From a virus, in IMG/VR virus record IMGVR_UViG_3300012931_000015, positions 62,001-126,000 of that record: a DNA stretch of 64,000 nt. One strand, written 5' to 3'. Numbering within the stretch: position 1 is the first letter of the stretch; each line of letters begins with the position of its first letter. Made by a program: the position numbers and the translations under genes. Below, piece by piece: positions 8,818 to 60,014 of the stretch. Under the pieces are notes generated by a model. It was not told where the DNA came from, did no database searches, and saw only the letters and a program-made list of their open reading frames with translations.

Positions 8818-11800
8818 TTAACCACACAAACTATAAAAACAAGTAGGACATTTCATACACGATTCACTAAAAACTAATTTTTCACCACATTCAGGACAAA
8901 TTACTGATGATTTTTCCCCTACTTTGATATATTTTAAAAGAGCTTTTGCAATACTTTTTTCTAGTGATAAAATTGAGCCTTGTGCTTTCTGTAATTGTTC
9001 AACTATAAATTTTAGATCAATCTCATGTCTTAATGCTAACGATATTAATCTAGTCAACCCTTCATTTGTAGGATTATCATAATATTTATTAATATCTTCT
9101 ATTACAATTTTACCATCAATTTCAACTTGATATATTTTTTTACTTTTCTTTATTAAGAAACATTCTTCAACATTGTCTTCAATATGAACTCCATTTTCTT
9201 TTCCAGCAAAAATCTCAAAAGGTTTATTATCAACCAATCCTAAAAATATATTCCAGCGTTCGCCTTTAAAATTAATTTTATAAATTTTAGTTTTAACTTT
9301 AATAGGTCTTTTTTTAGCAATTCTTTTATCTTGATTATTATCTTCTCTTATTAAGATACCTTCTCTGCATCCATCTCTATAAACAGTTACCCCTATAATA
9401 CCTAATTTATGAGCTTGTAAATATACTTCTTCAATATCTTGTACAGTAGCATTAGAAGGTAAATTAATTGTTTTACTAACACTAAGACTTACATTATAGC
9501 TGACTTTACTTAAAAGTTGTAAATGTTCTAATGGTTTAATGTCGCTTGCAACAACAAAAATTTGTTTTTCTTTATCTGTTAGATATTTTGATTTCTGGCA
9601 TGAACCATTATTACTTGATACTTCTTCTAAAATGTTTAATTTTTTATCAGAATAATTATTATCTAAATATTTATCAAATACAGGATCAGTTATAAATATT
9701 TCATCATATTGTTTATTTAACTTTTCAATTTTACGTTTGTAGGCTAGAGCAAAGACAGGTTCAATACCTCCCGATGTTTCTGCTAAAAACGAAATACTGC
9801 CTGTTGGGGCTATTGAACTTATATAACTATTTCTACTCCCATATTTCTTTAAATCTTTTTGTAGTTGTATTAAATCAATACCCGCAAACTCGTATTCAAT
9901 TTCAAAAAATCTTTTATTTGCATTAATAAATAATTCATAATCATAGCTAGGGTAACTGCCATATTCTTTTGCTAATTTTACAGAAGTTTCCATTCCTTTT
10001 AATGTGAGATATTTAATAACTTTATCTGTGAACTGATAAGCTTCTTCAGAATTATAAGATATATTTAACTTATAAAGACAATGTGCTAAACCCATAATTC
10101 CCAATCCAATTGGTCTAATGTTTAATGTAACATTTTTTATTTTTTCTAATGGATAACTATTATTATCTAGCACACTATTGAGAAAAAAAACACCTTTTTT
10201 AATTAGATCAGCATATTTAATCCAGTCAAATTGATTATCTTTATTTACTAAGTTATATAGGTTTATTGAAGCAAGGCAACAACTAGAGTAAGGAGCAGAA
10301 ACGAATTCGTGGCAATTAGAAATATTAAAACCATAACACCAAAAAGTATGAGATAAATTATTAACTGTAATATCATAAACTTCTTGAATACCTAAAGATT
10401 CTATTTTTTTTATTTCAAATGATTCTTTAATTTTGTTTTTGTTTTTTCTTAATTCACATTTTTGTATTAAAATTTCTAATTTTTCCATTTTATATTTTTG
10501 TAAAAATCCTATTGATTCGTAAAATTTTTGTCTATCATTAGATATTGATAAATCATAAGATTGTTTACATTGATATTCGCCATTTCTGAAATTAACTTTT
10601 TTTGGTTTATTTGTTGTATAGTAAGTTCTTATACCTAAAGAAGATAATATGATCTGTAAAGATTTAATCATATTAAAAGAAGCAGATTTATATGTTATTC
10701 TATCTCCAACTATACTACTATTGGCAGAATATAAACCTCGTAAAAAAGAATATAAATCATCTTTGTTCAATTTTAAAAATCTTTCAGGAATTTGTCTATT
10801 ATATGTTTTGCATATTTCGTGAGGTGTAAGTGATGTTTTTATTTCATAACCATTTTTAAAAGCTTTTTGTCTATCTTTAATTATAAGCTTCTCGACTTCT
10901 GAATTAAAATAATCTTGGTCATTTTTTCCTATAATCAAATATATTAAATTATTACTAGCTTTATGTACTGCTCCATCCCCCAAAACTAAGCCATCCATTA
11001 TATAATCTGGGTTAAATTTTTTTAAAGGTTCATAATTTCCTGATAAAATATCTATACTTTTTGCATTTTTTATTTGTGTTTTTACACCGTTTGTTATTAT
11101 TTCGTGGTTATCTGTTGATTCAAAAGTTCCTGCTGTTGTATAATATCTAAAAACTTCTTTTTTACCTGTACAAAACTTATTTATAACTTTAGTCCAACCT
11201 TCCTTAGACCATATAATGTCATTTATCTCAATATCATTTAAATTTTTTATACCCTGTGGTGTTAATATTTTTGCTGTATTAAGTAAACAAGGATTACTCA
11301 ATACATAATCAGTTACATTCTTTATAGGGCATCTATTCCATGCTATTGAATAGTTCATGAGTCCCGGCTCTGCCGAATTCCAAGCATTTTTAACAATTTT
11401 AAGCCATAACTCACTAACAGTAACTTTATTATTATTTTTATCTATCAAATCTATATATTCACCCGATTTTAATTTTACTTGATGAATGCTTTTAGGATTG
11501 TTTTGTAATTTATTATAAAACTCATCAATTATTTTTACTGAAAAATTAAACCTATTAAATTTTGTTAAATCTTTTTTAGCTTCTATGAAATCTAATATAT
11601 CAGGATGTTCTATTGATAAGATACTTGCCCCTGCACCACGTCTTACTCCATTTTGCTGGATACCATCTAATACAGCATTAAATATATTTATAAAAGGAAG
11701 TGGCCCGGAACTATTTCTATTTAAACTTATTATATTTTCTTGTGAACTTCTAAGCTGGGAATGGTCATAACCGACTCCCCCCGATGCTTTTGTAACTATT

Positions 11801-12060
11801 GCACATTCTTTTAAAGCATCAAAAATACCTTCAATACTATCTTCAATTGCCATAGGAAAACAACTACTAAGAGTACCTTTTCTTTCATTATTTGTATTTG
11901 CGTTCATTAGGGTAGGAGATGAAGGAATAAAATTCATATCTCTTATATCTTCATAAATAGGTTCATATAATTTACTAACTCGTTTTGCTATATCATCCCA
12001 TTCTTTTTCATCTTTTAAAAAATATCTATCCTGTAATAGTTTTAGTATATTGTCATTCAT
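8818..12060 (-). CDS. nrdJ: Class II (B12-dependent) ribonucleotide reductase with intein
   Basis: Converts ribonucleotides to deoxyribonucleotides using adenosylcobalamin. The precursor is 1080 residues: N-extein 1-257, intein 258-582, C-extein 583-1080, leaving about 755 residues after splicing. Extein features are the conserved NPC at the splice junction, PTGSISFLAETSGGIEP in the barrel, VSKTINLP and GVTVYRDGCREG, and a C-terminal zinc ribbon (CPECGEKL...CMKCPTC...C). That ribbon and the lack of a partner NrdB gene nearby point to class II rather than class I. ATG 12060 follows AAGGAA. It forms a dNTP-supply group with thioredoxin downstream and MazG upstream. Confidence 0.93.
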   Translation of the reverse strand: MNDNILKLLQDRYFLKDEKEWDDIAKRVSKLYEPIYEDIRDMNFIPSSPTLMNANTNNERKGTLSSCFPMAIEDSIEGIFDALKECAIVTKASGGVGYDHSQLRSSQENIISLNRNSSGPLPFINIFNAVLDGIQQNGVRRGAGASILSIEHPDILDFIEAKKDLTKFNRFNFSVKIIDEFYNKLQNNPKSIHQVKLKSGEYIDLIDKNNNKVTVSELWLKIVKNAWNSAEPGLMNYSIAWNRCPIKNVTDYVLSNPCLLNTAKILTPQGIKNLNDIEINDIIWSKEGWTKVINKFCTGKKEVFRYYTTAGTFESTDNHEIITNGVKTQIKNAKSIDILSGNYEPLKKFNPDYIMDGLVLGDGAVHKASNNLIYLIIGKNDQDYFNSEVEKLIIKDRQKAFKNGYEIKTSLTPHEICKTYNRQIPERFLKLNKDDLYSFLRGLYSANSSIVGDRITYKSASFNMIKSLQIILSSLGIRTYYTTNKPKKVNFRNGEYQCKQSYDLSISNDRQKFYESIGFLQKYKMEKLEILIQKCELRKNKNKIKESFEIKKIESLGIQEVYDITVNNLSHTFWCYGFNISNCHEFVSAPYSSCCLASINLYNLVNKDNQFDWIKYADLIKKGVFFLNSVLDNNSYPLEKIKNVTLNIRPIGLGIMGLAHCLYKLNISYNSEEAYQFTDKVIKYLTLKGMETSVKLAKEYGSYPSYDYELFINANKRFFEIEYEFAGIDLIQLQKDLKKYGSRNSYISSIAPTGSISFLAETSGGIEPVFALAYKRKIEKLNKQYDEIFITDPVFDKYLDNNYSDKKLNILEEVSSNNGSCQKSKYLTDKEKQIFVVASDIKPLEHLQLLSKVSYNVSLSVSKTINLPSNATVQDIEEVYLQAHKLGIIGVTVYRDGCREGILIREDNNQDKRIAKKRPIKVKTKIYKINFKGERWNIFLGLVDNKPFEIFAGKENGVHIEDNVEECFLIKKSKKIYQVEIDGKIVIEDINKYYDNPTNEGLTRLISLALRHEIDLKFIVEQLQKAQGSILSLEKSIAKALLKYIKVGEKSSVICPECGEKLVFSESCMKCPTCFYSLCG
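10315..11289 (-). mobile_element. Intein with LAGLIDADG endonuclease inside NrdJ
   Basis: A 325-residue in-frame insertion. It starts with Cys (CLLNTAKILTPQGIKNL), has block B-like FESTDNHEI, and ends with VYDITVNNLSHTFW...FNISN before a Cys of the C-extein, the usual Asn/Cys splice junction (the penultimate residue is Ser rather than His). The middle holds two LAGLIDADG-like helices (IMDGLVLGDGAV and FLRGLYSANSS), so it should be a full homing intein. It interrupts NP^C in the conserved active-site region, so no enzyme is made until splicing occurs. Confidence 0.93.
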
Positions 12061-19776: not shown

Positions 19777-20544
19777 TTATTTCCCTTTCTTTATTTTAAT
19801 AATCTTACTACTAACCATTGTTCCACTTTCTTTAAATGCGCCACTATCTAAGTCAAATATTTCAGCATTGTTTATTTTTAAAAATTCTCTAAACTCATCA
19901 TTTATTTTTCTACTATTACTGAATGCTCCACTACTTAATATTCCAACCAAAATACCATTATCTGTTAAATGATCAAATGCTTTCATTGTATGAATAATAT
20001 CTTGATTTTTAGTAAATGGAGGATTCATTAATATTCTGTCAAACGAAAATAAAATATCGTAGTCTAAAAAATTACCATTTATTATATTAAAGTTAATATT
20101 ATTTGGTTTGTTATTTTCTAATAGTTCACAATTTTCTTTATCTAGCTCAATACAAGTTATATCAAGATTTAAATTAGGTAAATTAAGAATTATGTTTCCA
20201 ATTCCTGCGCTTGGTTCTAACAACCAGCAACCAGTATATAATTCTGCCAATTCTATCATTTCTTCTACAATTTCTATTGGAGTATAGTACTGTTGATATT
20301 CTTTTTTTATATCAATATATTCTCCGGTCTCTATTAAATTATTTATTGATTCTTTCAAATCTGTTTCTGTATTTTCACATACATGATATTTTAGTTTTCT
20401 ACCCCATTTTATGTTTAGGGTTTCTAATACTTTCATTAAATCTAAATATAGTTTTCTATCTAACTGTGTGTTTGGAAGATATAAGTTATTATCTTCAATG
20501 TTACAATTTGATAGTACATTAATTATTTCTTGTTTAATTTTCAT
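19777..20544 (-). CDS. N6-adenine-type DNA methyltransferase
   Basis: 255 residues. YYTPIEIVEEMIEL, LLEPSAGIGNIIL (SAM motif I near residue 109), ITCIELDKEN (motif II) and DRILMNPPFTKNQD (catalytic NPPF near 173) identify a gamma-class amino-methylase fold, as in solitary phage adenine methyltransferases. The N-terminal 85 residues are a less conserved helical region. It could protect phage DNA from restriction, or act on RNA. GAGG precedes ATG 20544, immediately after the structured RNA candidate. Confidence 0.85.
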   Translation of the reverse strand: MKIKQEIINVLSNCNIEDNNLYLPNTQLDRKLYLDLMKVLETLNIKWGRKLKYHVCENTETDLKESINNLIETGEYIDIKKEYQQYYTPIEIVEEMIELAELYTGCWLLEPSAGIGNIILNLPNLNLDITCIELDKENCELLENNKPNNINFNIINGNFLDYDILFSFDRILMNPPFTKNQDIIHTMKAFDHLTDNGILVGILSSGAFSNSRKINDEFREFLKINNAEIFDLDSGAFKESGTMVSSKIIKIKKGK

Positions 20545-20576
20545 AGTTTAATTTCCTCTTATATTTTTTAATAAAT

Positions 20577-20710
20577 AAAAAAAGACTCATTCCAACTGTT
20601 CCTGTTGGAGATACCTGTTAATTCAGGTCGACTGGTGCGCTTACGACTTGTAGTCTTTAGAGGCGTTCGAGTCATTTCAAAAAACATTAAATGGAGGGGA
20701 GTCCATCTAT
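20577..20710 (-). ncRNA. GC-rich structured RNA candidate ending in a U-run
   Basis: This gap is far richer in G and C than the rest of the window. On the minus strand GACTC (20669-20673) can pair with GAGTC (20584-20588) around three hairpins: GACT/AGTC (20655-20645), ACCTG/CAGGT (20628-20613) and CCAAC/GTTGG with a 7-base loop (20608-20592). It ends in seven U residues (20583-20577) like a terminated transcript. Upstream, CCCCTCC (20699-20693) is complementary to a ribosome-binding site. No ORF is present. It resembles no RNA family I can name. The plus strand could also fold, so orientation is inferred from the U-run and the neighbouring genes. Confidence 0.5.
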
Positions 20711-20714
20711 AATT

Positions 20715-20981
20715 TTATAATATTTCCCTTTTTATAAACTGACTTATTATAAACTCTTCTTTTTTTGTGAAATCATTAAATTTTCTATAACCTTTGATAA
20801 TTACTCTATCACCTTTTCTTAAATCTGCCAAAGTTTCACCTATTTCTTCCCAGCCTATCAAAATTAGTTCTTCATCGTCATTTTTTATTTTTACTTTACT
20901 TAATAATTTACCAGAAGGTACATATTTAGTTTCAGGATCATGTTGTAATATACCATCTGTAAATTCATGTTCATAACTCAT
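20715..20981 (-). CDS. OB-fold protein, single-strand-binding-like
   Basis: 88 residues with an SSB-like pattern: VPSGKLLSKVKI, then ELILIGWEEIGETLADLRKGDRVIIKG, where SSB proteins have '...w...gk.AE.l...lkKGd.V.v.G', and a final strand ending ISQFI. It may bind single-stranded nucleic acid. Shares the fold, but little sequence, with the protein at 7962-8249. Confidence 0.55.
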   Translation of the reverse strand: MSYEHEFTDGILQHDPETKYVPSGKLLSKVKIKNDDEELILIGWEEIGETLADLRKGDRVIIKGYRKFNDFTKKEEFIISQFIKREIL

Positions 20982-23276: not shown

Positions 23277-23305
23277 AGTATAAAATATTTTAGCAGATTT
23301 GTCAA
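23277..23305 (-). promoter_or_regulatory. Sigma70-type promoter
   Basis: TTGACA (23300-23305), 17-base spacer, TATACT (23277-23282). It lies between tRNA-Tyr and the gene starting at 23238, so it restarts transcription after the tRNA array. Confidence 0.65.
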
Positions 23306-24529: not shown

Positions 24530-24615
24530 CGGAAAACAGAGAACTCGAATCTCATACACTTATCATGTACAATCAGTTTAGCAAACTGTTTCTGCTCCTA
24601 GCAGATTTGTTTTCC
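24530..24615 (-). tRNA. tRNA-Ser (GCT)
   Basis: Acceptor GGAAAAC/GTTTTCC, anticodon loop TTGCTAA (GCT), long variable arm (TGTACATGATAAGTGTA), T-loop TTCGAGT and discriminator G, all expected for serine. The outermost T-stem pair is T-T. Confidence 0.92.
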
Positions 24616-24617
24616 AT

Positions 24618-24689
24618 AGCCTTCAGTTTGGACTTGAACCAACACAAAATCCTTACAAGGGATTTATACTACCATTATATTATGAAGGC
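24618..24689 (-). tRNA. tRNA-Thr (TGT)
   Basis: Acceptor GCCTTCA/TGAAGGC, D-stem ATAT/GTAT, anticodon stem AATCC/GGATT around CTTGTAA (TGT). The T-loop TTCAAGT is canonical, but the T-stem has an extra A on its 3' side (GTTGG/CCAA-A-C). Confidence 0.88.
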
Positions 24690-24696
24690 GTAAAAT

Positions 24697-24783
24697 CGGA
24701 AGATAGGTCTACTCGAAAGCCATGCTTTTTTCAGCACCTACCGATTTCAAGTCGGCGGTAGTACCCTGACTACTTTATCTTCC
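24697..24783 (-). tRNA. tRNA-Ser (TGA)
   Basis: Acceptor GGAAGAT/ATCTTCC, anticodon loop CTTGAAA (TGA), long variable arm and discriminator G fit serine. The T-loop TTCGAGT is normal, but the T-stem is irregular, with six bases on the 3' side and mismatches. Confidence 0.87.
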
Positions 24784-24789
24784 CAAATG

Positions 24790-24863
24790 GGTGTCTATGG
24801 AGAATTGAACTCCAACTATCAGAGCCACAATCTGACGTGCGAACCTTTAACACTTTAGACACC
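24790..24863 (-). tRNA. tRNA-His (GTG)
   Basis: An eight-pair acceptor GGTGTCTA/TAGACACC gives the G-1:C73 pair unique to His. The anticodon loop is TTGTGGC (GTG), T-arm TGGAG-TTCAATT-CTCCA. Canonical in every part. Confidence 0.93.
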
Positions 24864-24895
24864 ACACATAAAGTCAAAATGATATTTGACTATAT

Positions 24896-24967
24896 CGGAT
24901 TTACGGAGAATTGAACTCACGACTTCAGGTTAGACAGACCTGCATACTACCTTTATATTATAAATCC
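24896..24967 (-). tRNA. tRNA-Asp (GTC)
   Basis: Acceptor GGATTTA/TAAATCC, anticodon stem CAGGT/ACCTG with loop CTGTCTA (GTC), discriminator G. The T-stem is CG-T-GAG/CTCCG, with a bulged T at the same place as in tRNA-Leu. Confidence 0.9.
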
Positions 24968-24969
24968 AT

Positions 24970-25042
24970 TAGCGGATAGTAGATTTGCACTACTGACCTT
25001 CAGCTTATGAGGCTGTCGAGCTAACTACTGCTCCAATCCGCT
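24970..25042 (-). tRNA. tRNA-Met (CAT)
   Basis: Acceptor AGCGGAT/ATCCGCT, anticodon loop CTCATAA (CAT), T-stem AGTAG/CTACT. A1-T72 pairs, so it is an elongator (or a CAT tRNA modified to read ATA), not an initiator. The T-loop is TGCAAAT, with G in place of T55. Confidence 0.88.
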
Positions 25043-25337: not shown

Positions 25338-25368
25338 CATATTGAGTTAATATCTCAATAAACTTATT

Positions 25369-25506
25369 TTAACATAATATATACCTTTCATAATCTGTTG
25401 ATTGTAATCCAGATAATAAAAAAGCAGACCCCTGATATTGGAGTTCACTATTACTTGGATTATTTTTATAATTGTGTTTTGGCATAGCCTTTAATAAATT
25501 TTTCAT
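25369..25506 (-). CDS. Leader peptide candidate (45 aa)
   Basis: ATG 25506 is about 20 bases after the -10 of the consensus promoter, and the frame ends at TAA 25369, just before two hairpins and the tRNA array. The ribosome site is poor (AAAAGA). The peptide is polar, without a recognisable motif. It may be a small gene or a leader whose translation affects the hairpins. Confidence 0.4.
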   Translation of the reverse strand: MKNLLKAMPKHNYKNNPSNSELQYQGSAFLLSGLQSTDYERYILC

Positions 25507-25525
25507 AATCTTTTATTGTGTTTGT

Positions 25526-25554
25526 ATTATACACCTTTTATTTAATATTGTCAA
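25526..25554 (-). promoter_or_regulatory. Consensus sigma70 promoter for the tRNA region
   Basis: TTGACA (25549-25554), exactly 17 bases, TATAAT (25526-25531): a perfect match to the bacterial housekeeping consensus. It heads the leader ORF and tRNA array. Confidence 0.8.
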
Positions 25555-46492: not shown

Positions 46493-47692
46493 ATGAAAGA
46501 AACTAAAAGACAAAACATTATTAAATCTCTTCAAGAAACGAAAGAAAAAAGAAAAACTCAAAAATGTTTGGTTTTTGAATTAAAAATAAATTATTCTAAA
46601 TTAAATAAAGTCCAAAAAGAAACATTAAAAATGTTTTTTGTAGAAGCTAAGTGGTTATATAATTTTTATTTATCAACAGATGATATTTTTAATCAATCAG
46701 ATAAAATAGAAAAAGTTATAATTAAAGATAAAGATAAAAAGGATATAGAAAAAAAATTACAATATTTACCCGCTCAAGTAAAACAAACAATTCTAAAACA
46801 ATTAAAACAAAATGTTTATAATTTAAGCAGAGCTAAAAAGAAAAATAATAAAGTTGGTAAATTAAAATTTAAATCTGAAATTAATTCTATTGATTTTAAT
46901 CAATATGGTAATACTCATAGAATAATAAATAATAATTTATTTAAAATTGGGAGAATAAAAAAATATATTAAAGTTCACGGTCTAAATCAAATCAAACCAG
47001 AATATGAGATTGCAAATGCAAAATTAATAAAAAAAGCAAGTGGGTATTATATTAAATTAACTTGTTTTGAAAATTTGAATAGTAAAGATTTTAACTTTAT
47101 AAATAATAAAAAAGGAGATGTAGGAATTGATTTTGGAATTAAAGATAATATTGTAACATCTGATGGAGAGTTTTTTAATATAAAAATTCAAGAAGATGAA
47201 CACTTAAAAAGATTGCAAAGAAAATTTGCAAGACAAAAAAAAGGTTCAAAGAATTTTTATAAAACAAAACAAAAAATTAAAAGATGTTATGAAAAAATAT
47301 CTAATAAAAAACAAGATCAAGTAAATAAATTAGTAAATTATCTTTGTACTAGTTACACATCAATTTATATGCAAGATGAGAATTTAAAAGGGTGGCATTT
47401 AGGGCTGTTTGGGAAACAAGTTCAGCATTCAGCATTAGGAAGTATAAAACAAAAACTTTTTAAACAAAAAAATGTAATAATTATTAATAGGTTTGAACCT
47501 ACAACAAAACTTTGTCATGAATGCGGAGCTATTAATAAAGATATAAAACTATCTGATAGAATTTTTAAATGTGCCTGTGGTTATGAAGAACACAGAGATA
47601 TTAAATCTGCTAAAACAATCAGATTTATAGGTAGATTTAAAAATAATTATATACCTACGGAACATAGGGATTTTAAGCCTGTGGAGAAATAA
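46493..47692 (+). CDS. tnpB: TnpB, RNA-guided transposon nuclease
   Basis: 399 residues, the only rightward gene after 668. The RuvC-like core holds DVGIDFGIKDN (Asp about 213), YMQDENLKG (Glu about 296) and EEHRDIKSAKTI (Asp about 369). A Cys4 zinc knuckle CHEC...CACG sits at about 341-362. An N-terminal helical/wedge region (EAKWLYNFYL, YLPAQVKQTILKQL) is present, so the protein looks complete and active. No TnpA transposase is in the window. TnpB proteins use an RNA made from the element's right end to cut DNA beside a short motif, which helps IS200/IS605 elements persist. In a phage it may act as a homing nuclease. Confidence 0.9.
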   Translation: MKETKRQNIIKSLQETKEKRKTQKCLVFELKINYSKLNKVQKETLKMFFVEAKWLYNFYLSTDDIFNQSDKIEKVIIKDKDKKDIEKKLQYLPAQVKQTILKQLKQNVYNLSRAKKKNNKVGKLKFKSEINSIDFNQYGNTHRIINNNLFKIGRIKKYIKVHGLNQIKPEYEIANAKLIKKASGYYIKLTCFENLNSKDFNFINNKKGDVGIDFGIKDNIVTSDGEFFNIKIQEDEHLKRLQRKFARQKKGSKNFYKTKQKIKRCYEKISNKKQDQVNKLVNYLCTSYTSIYMQDENLKGWHLGLFGKQVQHSALGSIKQKLFKQKNVIIINRFEPTTKLCHECGAINKDIKLSDRIFKCACGYEEHRDIKSAKTIRFIGRFKNNYIPTEHRDFKPVEK

Positions 47693-47780
47693 ACCTCTAC
47701 TTTTTAGTGAATTTTTTCATTTAAAAGCAAGTTATGTTTCAATGAAACAGGAAGCTCATGAATTTATTCGTGGGTAGTTC
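47600..47780 (+). ncRNA. Likely omega (re)RNA and right end of the TnpB element
   Basis: The tail of tnpB and the following bases contain GTGGAGAAATAAACCTCTAC, GTTTC-AAT-GAAAC (47736-47748) and the hairpin CTCATGAA-TTTA-TTCGTGGG (47755-47774) followed by TAGTTCAC, the usual right end of IS605-type elements. By analogy the RNA scaffold ends here and the guide would begin with the flanking sequence from about 47781. The element end coincides with the stop codon of the gene on the other strand. Confidence 0.65.
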
Positions 47781-48387
47781 ACCAATTATAGCGCATTCCT
47801 GTATTATTGCTATTTATTTTACAATTATACCACAAATTTCTATAATGATAATTATTTGCTATCTTTTTATCTAAAGCTTCCATTTTCATTTTATGAGCTT
47901 TTAATTCATATTCATTAGCAAAACTTTTTATCCACGAAATACTTTCTTTCATTTTTAATAACTTATTTTCTTTATCTATTTCTTTCTGAATAAGCTTTGC
48001 TCTATGACGTTGTATAAACTCTTCTGTTATCCACTTTACATTATTTAGATATTTTTGACATTGGTCAATTGTTAAATACTCCATACCTGAAAATAGACCC
48101 CTTAAAAAATGAAAGTTCTGTAAATTTTTTTCAGACTTATGCTTTTTAGAAATCATCCATTCATCTAAATGTATTGCTATATAACATAATAACTCCCTTT
48201 CATATCCTACCCACAATTTAGCATTTGGATGATTTATAACAGATCGCTTAGGTGTAATTAGTTTGTCATTTACATATAATAAACTAGCTAGGATATGGAT
48301 ATTTTCATATATGTTAGCTTGAAGTCTTTTTGTATCAAGCATAGAAGCACTTTTATAAAAATCTTTATCTACTATCCACGATTGCAT
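47779..48387 (-). CDS. Pyrimidine-dimer DNA glycosylase-like protein
   Basis: 202 residues. MQSWIVDKDFYKSASMLD followed by TKRLQANIYENIHIL and NHPNAKLWVGYERELLCYIAIHLDEW match the family annotated as pyrimidine-dimer DNA glycosylase (DenV-like/MSMEG_6728). Such enzymes excise UV-damaged bases. The stop codon lies inside the TnpB right end, so the natural C-terminus may have been trimmed. Begins at ATG 48387. Confidence 0.7.
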   Translation of the reverse strand: MQSWIVDKDFYKSASMLDTKRLQANIYENIHILASLLYVNDKLITPKRSVINHPNAKLWVGYERELLCYIAIHLDEWMISKKHKSEKNLQNFHFLRGLFSGMEYLTIDQCQKYLNNVKWITEEFIQRHRAKLIQKEIDKENKLLKMKESISWIKSFANEYELKAHKMKMEALDKKIANNYHYRNLWYNCKINSNNTGMRYNW

Positions 48388-58987: not shown

Positions 58988-60014
58988 CGGCAGGTACAAA
59001 CAATAAATTTTGAAAAAGTAACCTCCTTGACTTTATTTCATGGCAAACCGAGCATTCAAGCTCATAGTCCTCCTTGAAACCCATTTTAAGGTCATCCATT
59101 TTCATAAACAAATTAGTTGTTATAGCTGGATCAATTTTTAAAAATTCTTTATATTTTCTTTCTCGTTCTACTTCTATATCATTTATATGAGTTAAACATT
59201 GTGCTCTTGTATAATGTACTAAAGCTTTTAATTTTTCTTCATCTAACTCTCTCTGCATTTTTTTTGTAATGTCTCTAAGCTCATCTTTTGTAATTCCTGC
59301 TTTAGTAAAGTTATCTATTTTTTTCTGTTTAACACCATACAATTCTTGAACTTTCTGTTTTGCAAAAATTACATCATTTATTCTAGTAAATCTAAAACTA
59401 TATTTTATAGGATTAAGTTCTTGCGTATCAGAATTAAATATTTCATCTTCAACTGTAATAGGCTCATGTACATTATCCGGTACGTTATAAATAATAATGT
59501 TTTTAAGATTTAGTGTATATTTTTCAATAACTCTTTCATCATCATATTTAACTTTTTCTTGACATTCACACACCCATGGAATATCAATAGAAGTTCTCCA
59601 AAAATGTGCTAAAATTGTAGCAAGTATTTCTGTAAACTCTTCCTGTGTACAATTACCACAATCAAAATCTTCATAGCAATTTTCATTAAGTATTCTAACA
59701 AGATTTTCAACTGTATTAACTTCATTAGACAAAGTCAAATCATTAAGTTGAAGCGTTGTATAATCTTTATAGTGAAGTGTTTGAGGTGCTGAAAACTTAC
59801 CTAAGCTATGCAGATTAACAGTTATATAACTACTCGGTACTAGATTAACTGATTTAGTATTATCGTAAGCACTGTTGTTATTAATGTTGTTTCCGGTTTT
59901 ATTTGTAAAACTTTCTAATACTTTTTGTTTTGTTTCGGGGGGTAAATTTGATTTATTTATAAAATCATTAATATCATTTTTACCATTATTATTTTTTTTA
60001 TTATCACCATTCAT
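58941..60014 (-). CDS. Conserved phage structural/assembly-type protein (357 aa)
   Basis: The N-terminal 70 residues are N/K-rich and disordered-looking. SYITVNLHSLGKFSAP starts an ordered domain. Possible zinc pairs are CGNC, CECQ and CSVC. The final region (KSRRLLFQNLLFVPADG) is basic. This outline recalls T4 gp26/baseplate-hub-assembly proteins, but the match is weak. AAGGAG precedes ATG 60014. Confidence 0.5.
   Translation of the reverse strand: MNGDNKKNNNGKNDINDFINKSNLPPETKQKVLESFTNKTGNNINNNSAYDNTKSVNLVPSSYITVNLHSLGKFSAPQTLHYKDYTTLQLNDLTLSNEVNTVENLVRILNENCYEDFDCGNCTQEEFTEILATILAHFWRTSIDIPWVCECQEKVKYDDERVIEKYTLNLKNIIIYNVPDNVHEPITVEDEIFNSDTQELNPIKYSFRFTRINDVIFAKQKVQELYGVKQKKIDNFTKAGITKDELRDITKKMQRELDEEKLKALVHYTRAQCLTHINDIEVERERKYKEFLKIDPAITTNLFMKMDDLKMGFKEDYELECSVCHEIKSRRLLFQNLLFVPADGQRVVGKSPVFVGI

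Follow-up and report, generated by a model that had tools for sequence, protein, structure and literature searches.

Genomic setting of a GC-rich gap

The DNA analysed here (the window, 64,000 bases) is taken from a virus record of 163,578 bases, of which it spans positions 62001-126000. The record encodes homologues of the tail-sheath, baseplate, portal and head proteins of contractile-tailed phages. Among known phages, the portal protein matched a single phage record at 21% identity and the head protein gave two matches at 25-26% identity; by these protein sequences, the record appears to be a phage very remote from known phages. Its GC content is 25-27% (25.6% in the window). As a separate observation, a ribonucleotide-reductase-like ORF in the window (8818-12060, minus strand) seemingly carries an intein-like insert, judging from its translation only. 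The element under study, here called A, occurs once in the record. Assigned to the minus strand like both its neighbours, it sits in a 170-base gap that runs from the stop of an 88-aa ORF (20715) to a methyltransferase-like gene starting at 20544. The features of the locus, in window coordinates, are as follows.

19777-20544, minus: methyltransferase-like gene, 255 aa, Pfam MTS, downstream of A
20577-20713, minus: A, a proposed structured RNA element; the strand is assigned from gene context, and the plus strand folds better
20715-20981, minus: 88-aa ORF without a Pfam match, upstream of A
23277-23305, minus: near-consensus sigma-70-type promoter TTGACA-17-TATACT, the likely start of a transcript through A

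The end of A lies about 32 nt upstream of the methyltransferase-like start on the same strand, and a promoter scan found no convincing promoter of its own adjoining A. Ranking gaps by GC content and length is an established route to structured RNAs in AT-rich genomes, with the warning that about 40% of such gaps held known genes and that many others held short peptides (PMC6429828). When the 57 gaps of 80 bases or more in the whole record were ranked by their best 80-base GC, only three exceeded 37%, namely those holding a tRNA cluster (48.7%), A (48.7%) and a second element, B (47.5%), while the next gap reached 36.2% and the median was 27.5%. Together with a GC content of 47% in 20584-20674 and 41% in 20577-20710, where the window averages 25.6%, this ranking bears out the original prediction that A is far richer in GC than its surroundings. 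The accompanying claim that the stretch is gene-free also holds: a 40-codon ORF is present (20565-20687, minus), but its codon score falls below those of all 1,499 40-codon windows taken from the long ORFs of the phage, and A is non-coding by codon usage. A degraded HNH gene (WCAYD in the plus-strand translation, RCAYC in HNH proteins) was rejected as well, since three readings had no Pfam match.

Like the GC-IGR ncRNA candidates of AT-rich bacteria (PMC6429828), A is a long, GC-rich, non-coding gap with a predicted structure that stands out from its genome; that genome is AT-rich and compact, and A separates in the length and GC ranking as known ncRNAs do. The GC-IGR classes differ in being defined by comparative alignments, whereas A is without a homologue in our searches. 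A is a credible orphan candidate of the GC-rich intergenic ncRNA type, as far as such predictions go.

Predicted fold, strand and C-rich tract

The elements of the predicted minus-strand fold are listed below in 5' to 3' order.

20688-20709, minus: 5' hairpin UAGAUGGA-CUCCCC-UCCAUUUA with the CCCCUCC tract (20699-20693), mean pair probability 0.88
20669-20673, minus: P1 5' strand GACUC, mean pair probability about 0.8 with 20588-20584
20638-20665, minus: hairpin 1, CGC/GCG (pair probability 0.5) around GACU-ACA-AGUC (0.9)
20630-20633, minus: AGUC, whose pairing with GACU at 20673-20670 in a competing fold of the predicted ensemble would free GAGUC
20613-20628, minus: hairpin 2, ACCUG-AAUUAA-CAGGU, pair probability 0.98
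20591-20609, minus: hairpin 3, UCCAAC-AGGAACA-GUUGGA, pair probability 0.95-0.98
20584-20588, minus: P1 3' strand GAGUC of the predicted fold
20577-20583, minus: U7 tract immediately past P1; such runs are common in this genome

The architecture first proposed, three hairpins under a closing stem followed by seven U residues, is recovered in the minus-strand minimum free energy (MFE) structure, in which P1 (GACUC/GAGUC) encloses the three hairpins and U7 follows, with the 5' hairpin standing separately. Its stability is modest, however, with a z-score of about -1.6 against dinucleotide shuffles (-1.64 and -1.63), and the plus strand does better (z -2.5 to -2.8). Over 100 nt the plus strand reaches -30.3 kcal/mol (z -2.8), below all 1,616 100-nt windows sampled in a genome fold scan. 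Two G-U pairs in the stem at 20637-20665 form only on the plus strand, while on the minus strand it is the 5' hairpin that has an additional G-U pair. Thermodynamics slightly favours the plus strand and gene context favours the minus strand.

Within the minus-strand ensemble, the P1 form (-25.2 kcal/mol) lies about 1.8 kcal/mol below its competitor (-23.5 kcal/mol), and a nascent RNA that lacks the P1 3' strand has the competing GACU/AGUC helix as its MFE structure. As a terminator, P1 followed by U7 would rest on a stem of 5 bp that closes a multiloop, and a terminator scan did not flag the site; runs of at least seven T occur about every 930 bases per strand in this genome.

Small RNAs with C-rich loops, for example of the RsaE/RoxS type, bind Shine-Dalgarno sites, and A resembles them in having its CCCCUCC (CCCCTCC in the DNA, 20699-20693, minus) partly exposed in the loop of the 5' hairpin. 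The tract noted in the original prediction is present, but its proposed pairing with ribosome-binding sites does not rise clearly above shuffled controls: across 228 phage start regions the mean was -5.3, compared with -4.9 ± 0.45 for shuffles, and GGAGG is carried by 6 of the 228. A further difference from RsaE/RoxS-type RNAs is that A has no Rfam match.

Known families, homologues and a second candidate

Against Rfam release 15, A gave no hit at the gathering score, and relaxing the threshold to E ≤ 10 still left 20577-20710 without one, in agreement with the earlier statement that it fits no known RNA family. Finders for tRNA and tmRNA left it uncalled at normal thresholds, on which ground a degraded tRNA was rejected; at a 70% threshold, there was only a spurious-looking call with a 4-base anticodon. 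A remnant of a TnpB-type (IS605/TnpB-associated) RNA was likewise rejected, since A has no similarity to the TnpB 3' ends and guide-RNA scaffolds of this phage or to anything elsewhere in the record. The record does contain a solo TnpB 3' end with its downstream hairpin region, with no full tnpB seen beside it (L003:6197-6338 and window 47645-47786, 81% identical over 148 bases), which is possibly a stand-alone guide RNA or a non-autonomous IS605-type remnant.

Homologues of A were sought widely. BLAST against phages and plasmids gave no match, IMG/VR gave no credible match, and scans of viral and genome contigs, together with covariance-model searches of remote relatives, returned nothing credible. 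Viral-contig scans with the methyltransferase, DnaB-like and RecD-like proteins found no relatives of the phage, and alignment of the head protein yielded only relatives at 22-27% identity, none with A or the methyltransferase. Because the collections may omit near relatives of this record, the absence of homologues is weak evidence. DNA patterns derived from A matched coding sequence or occurred at background number and score. One such lead, in IMG/VR contigs, was an apparent 5' leader with an 8-bp stem past a strong promoter (L088:10905-10962, minus; also L113 and L145). It has short blocks in common with A, for which chance may account. A relationship through the shared CGAACGCCTCTA...TAAGCGCACCA.TCG was rejected, as the alignment scored like unrelated matches and the model E-value of 0.018 was obtained for a sequence preselected by the same pattern.

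The third GC-rich gap holds B, found by the GC ranking (record 59833-59925, L004:19833-19925, plus strand, outside the window). B folds with a z-score of -2.7 to -3.0, combines a long closing stem, GCUAAAGGUAG/CUACUUUUAGU, with an inner hairpin, has a near-consensus promoter (TTGACT-17-TATTAT) just upstream and UUUU in its 3' arm, and had no match in Rfam or BLAST; in several respects, it is a better stand-alone RNA candidate than A. A link between the two through CGAACG and AGCGCA was discarded, as chance alone would yield about two 6-mers in common, and the model of each element fails to find the other. In the tRNA cluster (window 24570-24990, minus), ARAGORN at a 90% threshold enlarges the default call by tRNA-Ser(gct), tRNA-Ser(tga) and tRNA-Asp(gtc), and the position of the last is also found by Rfam. 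Upstream of the cluster lies a perfect sigma-70-type promoter, TTGACA-17-TATAAT (window 25554-25526, minus), and downstream of it, immediately ahead of the first tRNA, a terminator-like hairpin of 18 pairs (25338-25300, minus); the leader of this tRNA transcript (window 25360-25554, minus) may be attenuated.

A candidate leader RNA and its alternatives

A structured RNA near the methyltransferase-like gene is a plausible description of A, and a structured ncRNA is the best reading of the locus. The suggestion that A serves as a leader or small regulatory RNA survives to that extent, without support for an action of its C-rich tract on the ribosome-binding sites of phage genes. Our preferred reading, to which we give a probability of only about 0.36, is that A is a structured leader RNA of the minus-strand operon that may switch between P1 and the competing helix. 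The position of A and the lack of a convincing promoter of its own fit such a role, and the promoter at 23305-23277, with no good promoter by A, suggests transcription within the operon. The strand of A, its transcription, termination and switching, any effector and any control of the methyltransferase are points that we infer. A would be transcribed on the minus strand within the polycistronic transcript of the region, probably from that promoter, and would form the leader of the methyltransferase-like gene, acting in cis. In the nascent RNA, the 5' GACU would pair first with AGUC (20633-20630), and P1 would take over after its 3' strand is made. In the closed form, with P1 and the three hairpins, GAGUC would be paired right before U7, favouring termination or 3'-end formation; in the open form, GACU would pair with AGUC, GAGUC would be freed, and transcription could read through into the methyltransferase gene. 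The predicted layout resembles that of an attenuator, although P1, a 5-bp stem that closes a multiloop, would make termination weak. With attenuators and riboswitch-type leaders, A shares a place upstream of a same-strand gene and two mutually exclusive predicted helices near a U tract, and it differs from them in lacking an Rfam riboswitch match and in its weak, multiloop-closing stem.

In favour of the leader reading, A is one of three high-GC gaps, another being the tRNA cluster; it is non-coding, shares strand and operon with its neighbours and has no good promoter adjoining it; and P1 directly precedes U7, with a competing helix only about 1.8 kcal/mol away that forms first. Against it count the modest minus-strand fold relative to shuffles and the better plus-strand fold, a P1 that is no canonical terminator, the frequency of T7 runs, the possibility that alternative helices of 4-5 bp arise by chance, and the lack of a homologue.

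A possible, if doubtful, alternative is that A acts in trans or structurally as a stable RNA, transcribed from a promoter of its own or processed from the minus-strand transcript, and exerts no control over the methyltransferase. A folded, GC-rich RNA of about 100-137 nt ending in a stem and U7 would suit this, as would the large tRNA cluster on the same strand 2.6 kb away and B, apparently another stand-alone RNA candidate of the phage; but A has no convincing promoter of its own, and its C-rich tract does not pair with phage start regions clearly better than shuffled controls do. The tRNA region of phage T4 encodes the stable RNAs C and D, and A is likewise a phage RNA candidate that is close to them in size and shares its strand with a tRNA cluster, the likeness being one of size and strand; unlike them, it lies 2.6 kb away from the cluster and behind a different promoter.

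It is unlikely that A is a DNA site (a replication, packaging or transposon-end hairpin) or foreign DNA of recent arrival that has no function as RNA. Its composition is sharply unlike the rest of the genome, and the phage has several TnpB-type genes and the solo TnpB 3'-end remnant, yet A is present in a single copy and resembles neither TnpB-associated ends nor any other part of the record, and structured RNAs such as tRNAs usually stand out in this way here. Also unlikely is a functional plus-strand RNA, which would form three hairpins in succession and be antisense to the operon. The exceptional plus-strand folding energy, the two G-U pairs peculiar to that strand and a better-defined ensemble argue for it, but every neighbouring gene is on the minus strand, the only promoter-like site is weak (20538-20565, of a class not much above shuffles), no terminator lies past A, and the G-U pair of the 5' hairpin works only on the minus strand. 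Highly improbable is a short coding sequence, whether the 40-codon ORF or an in-frame remnant of the upstream gene: the frame stays open for about 49 codons past the upstream stop codon and the ORF would leave about 20 nt before the methyltransferase start, but its codon score lies under that of every gene window, its shuffle-normalised score is 1.1 against 2.7 ± 0.3 in genes, it has neither a good SD nor a Pfam match, and the same stretch is equally open on the opposite strand.

Non-coding RNAs of phages are under-explored, and in this AT-rich, compact phage, ranking gaps by GC isolates the tRNA cluster and two unknown elements, which makes such a genome a good hunting ground for new RNA classes. 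That A represents a new class of phage RNA seen here for the first time (a small switch or a stable RNA in a methyltransferase operon), with B as an unrelated new RNA, is a rather doubtful prospect. Should A indeed switch expression of the methyltransferase-like gene, it would represent a cis-regulator carried by a phage.
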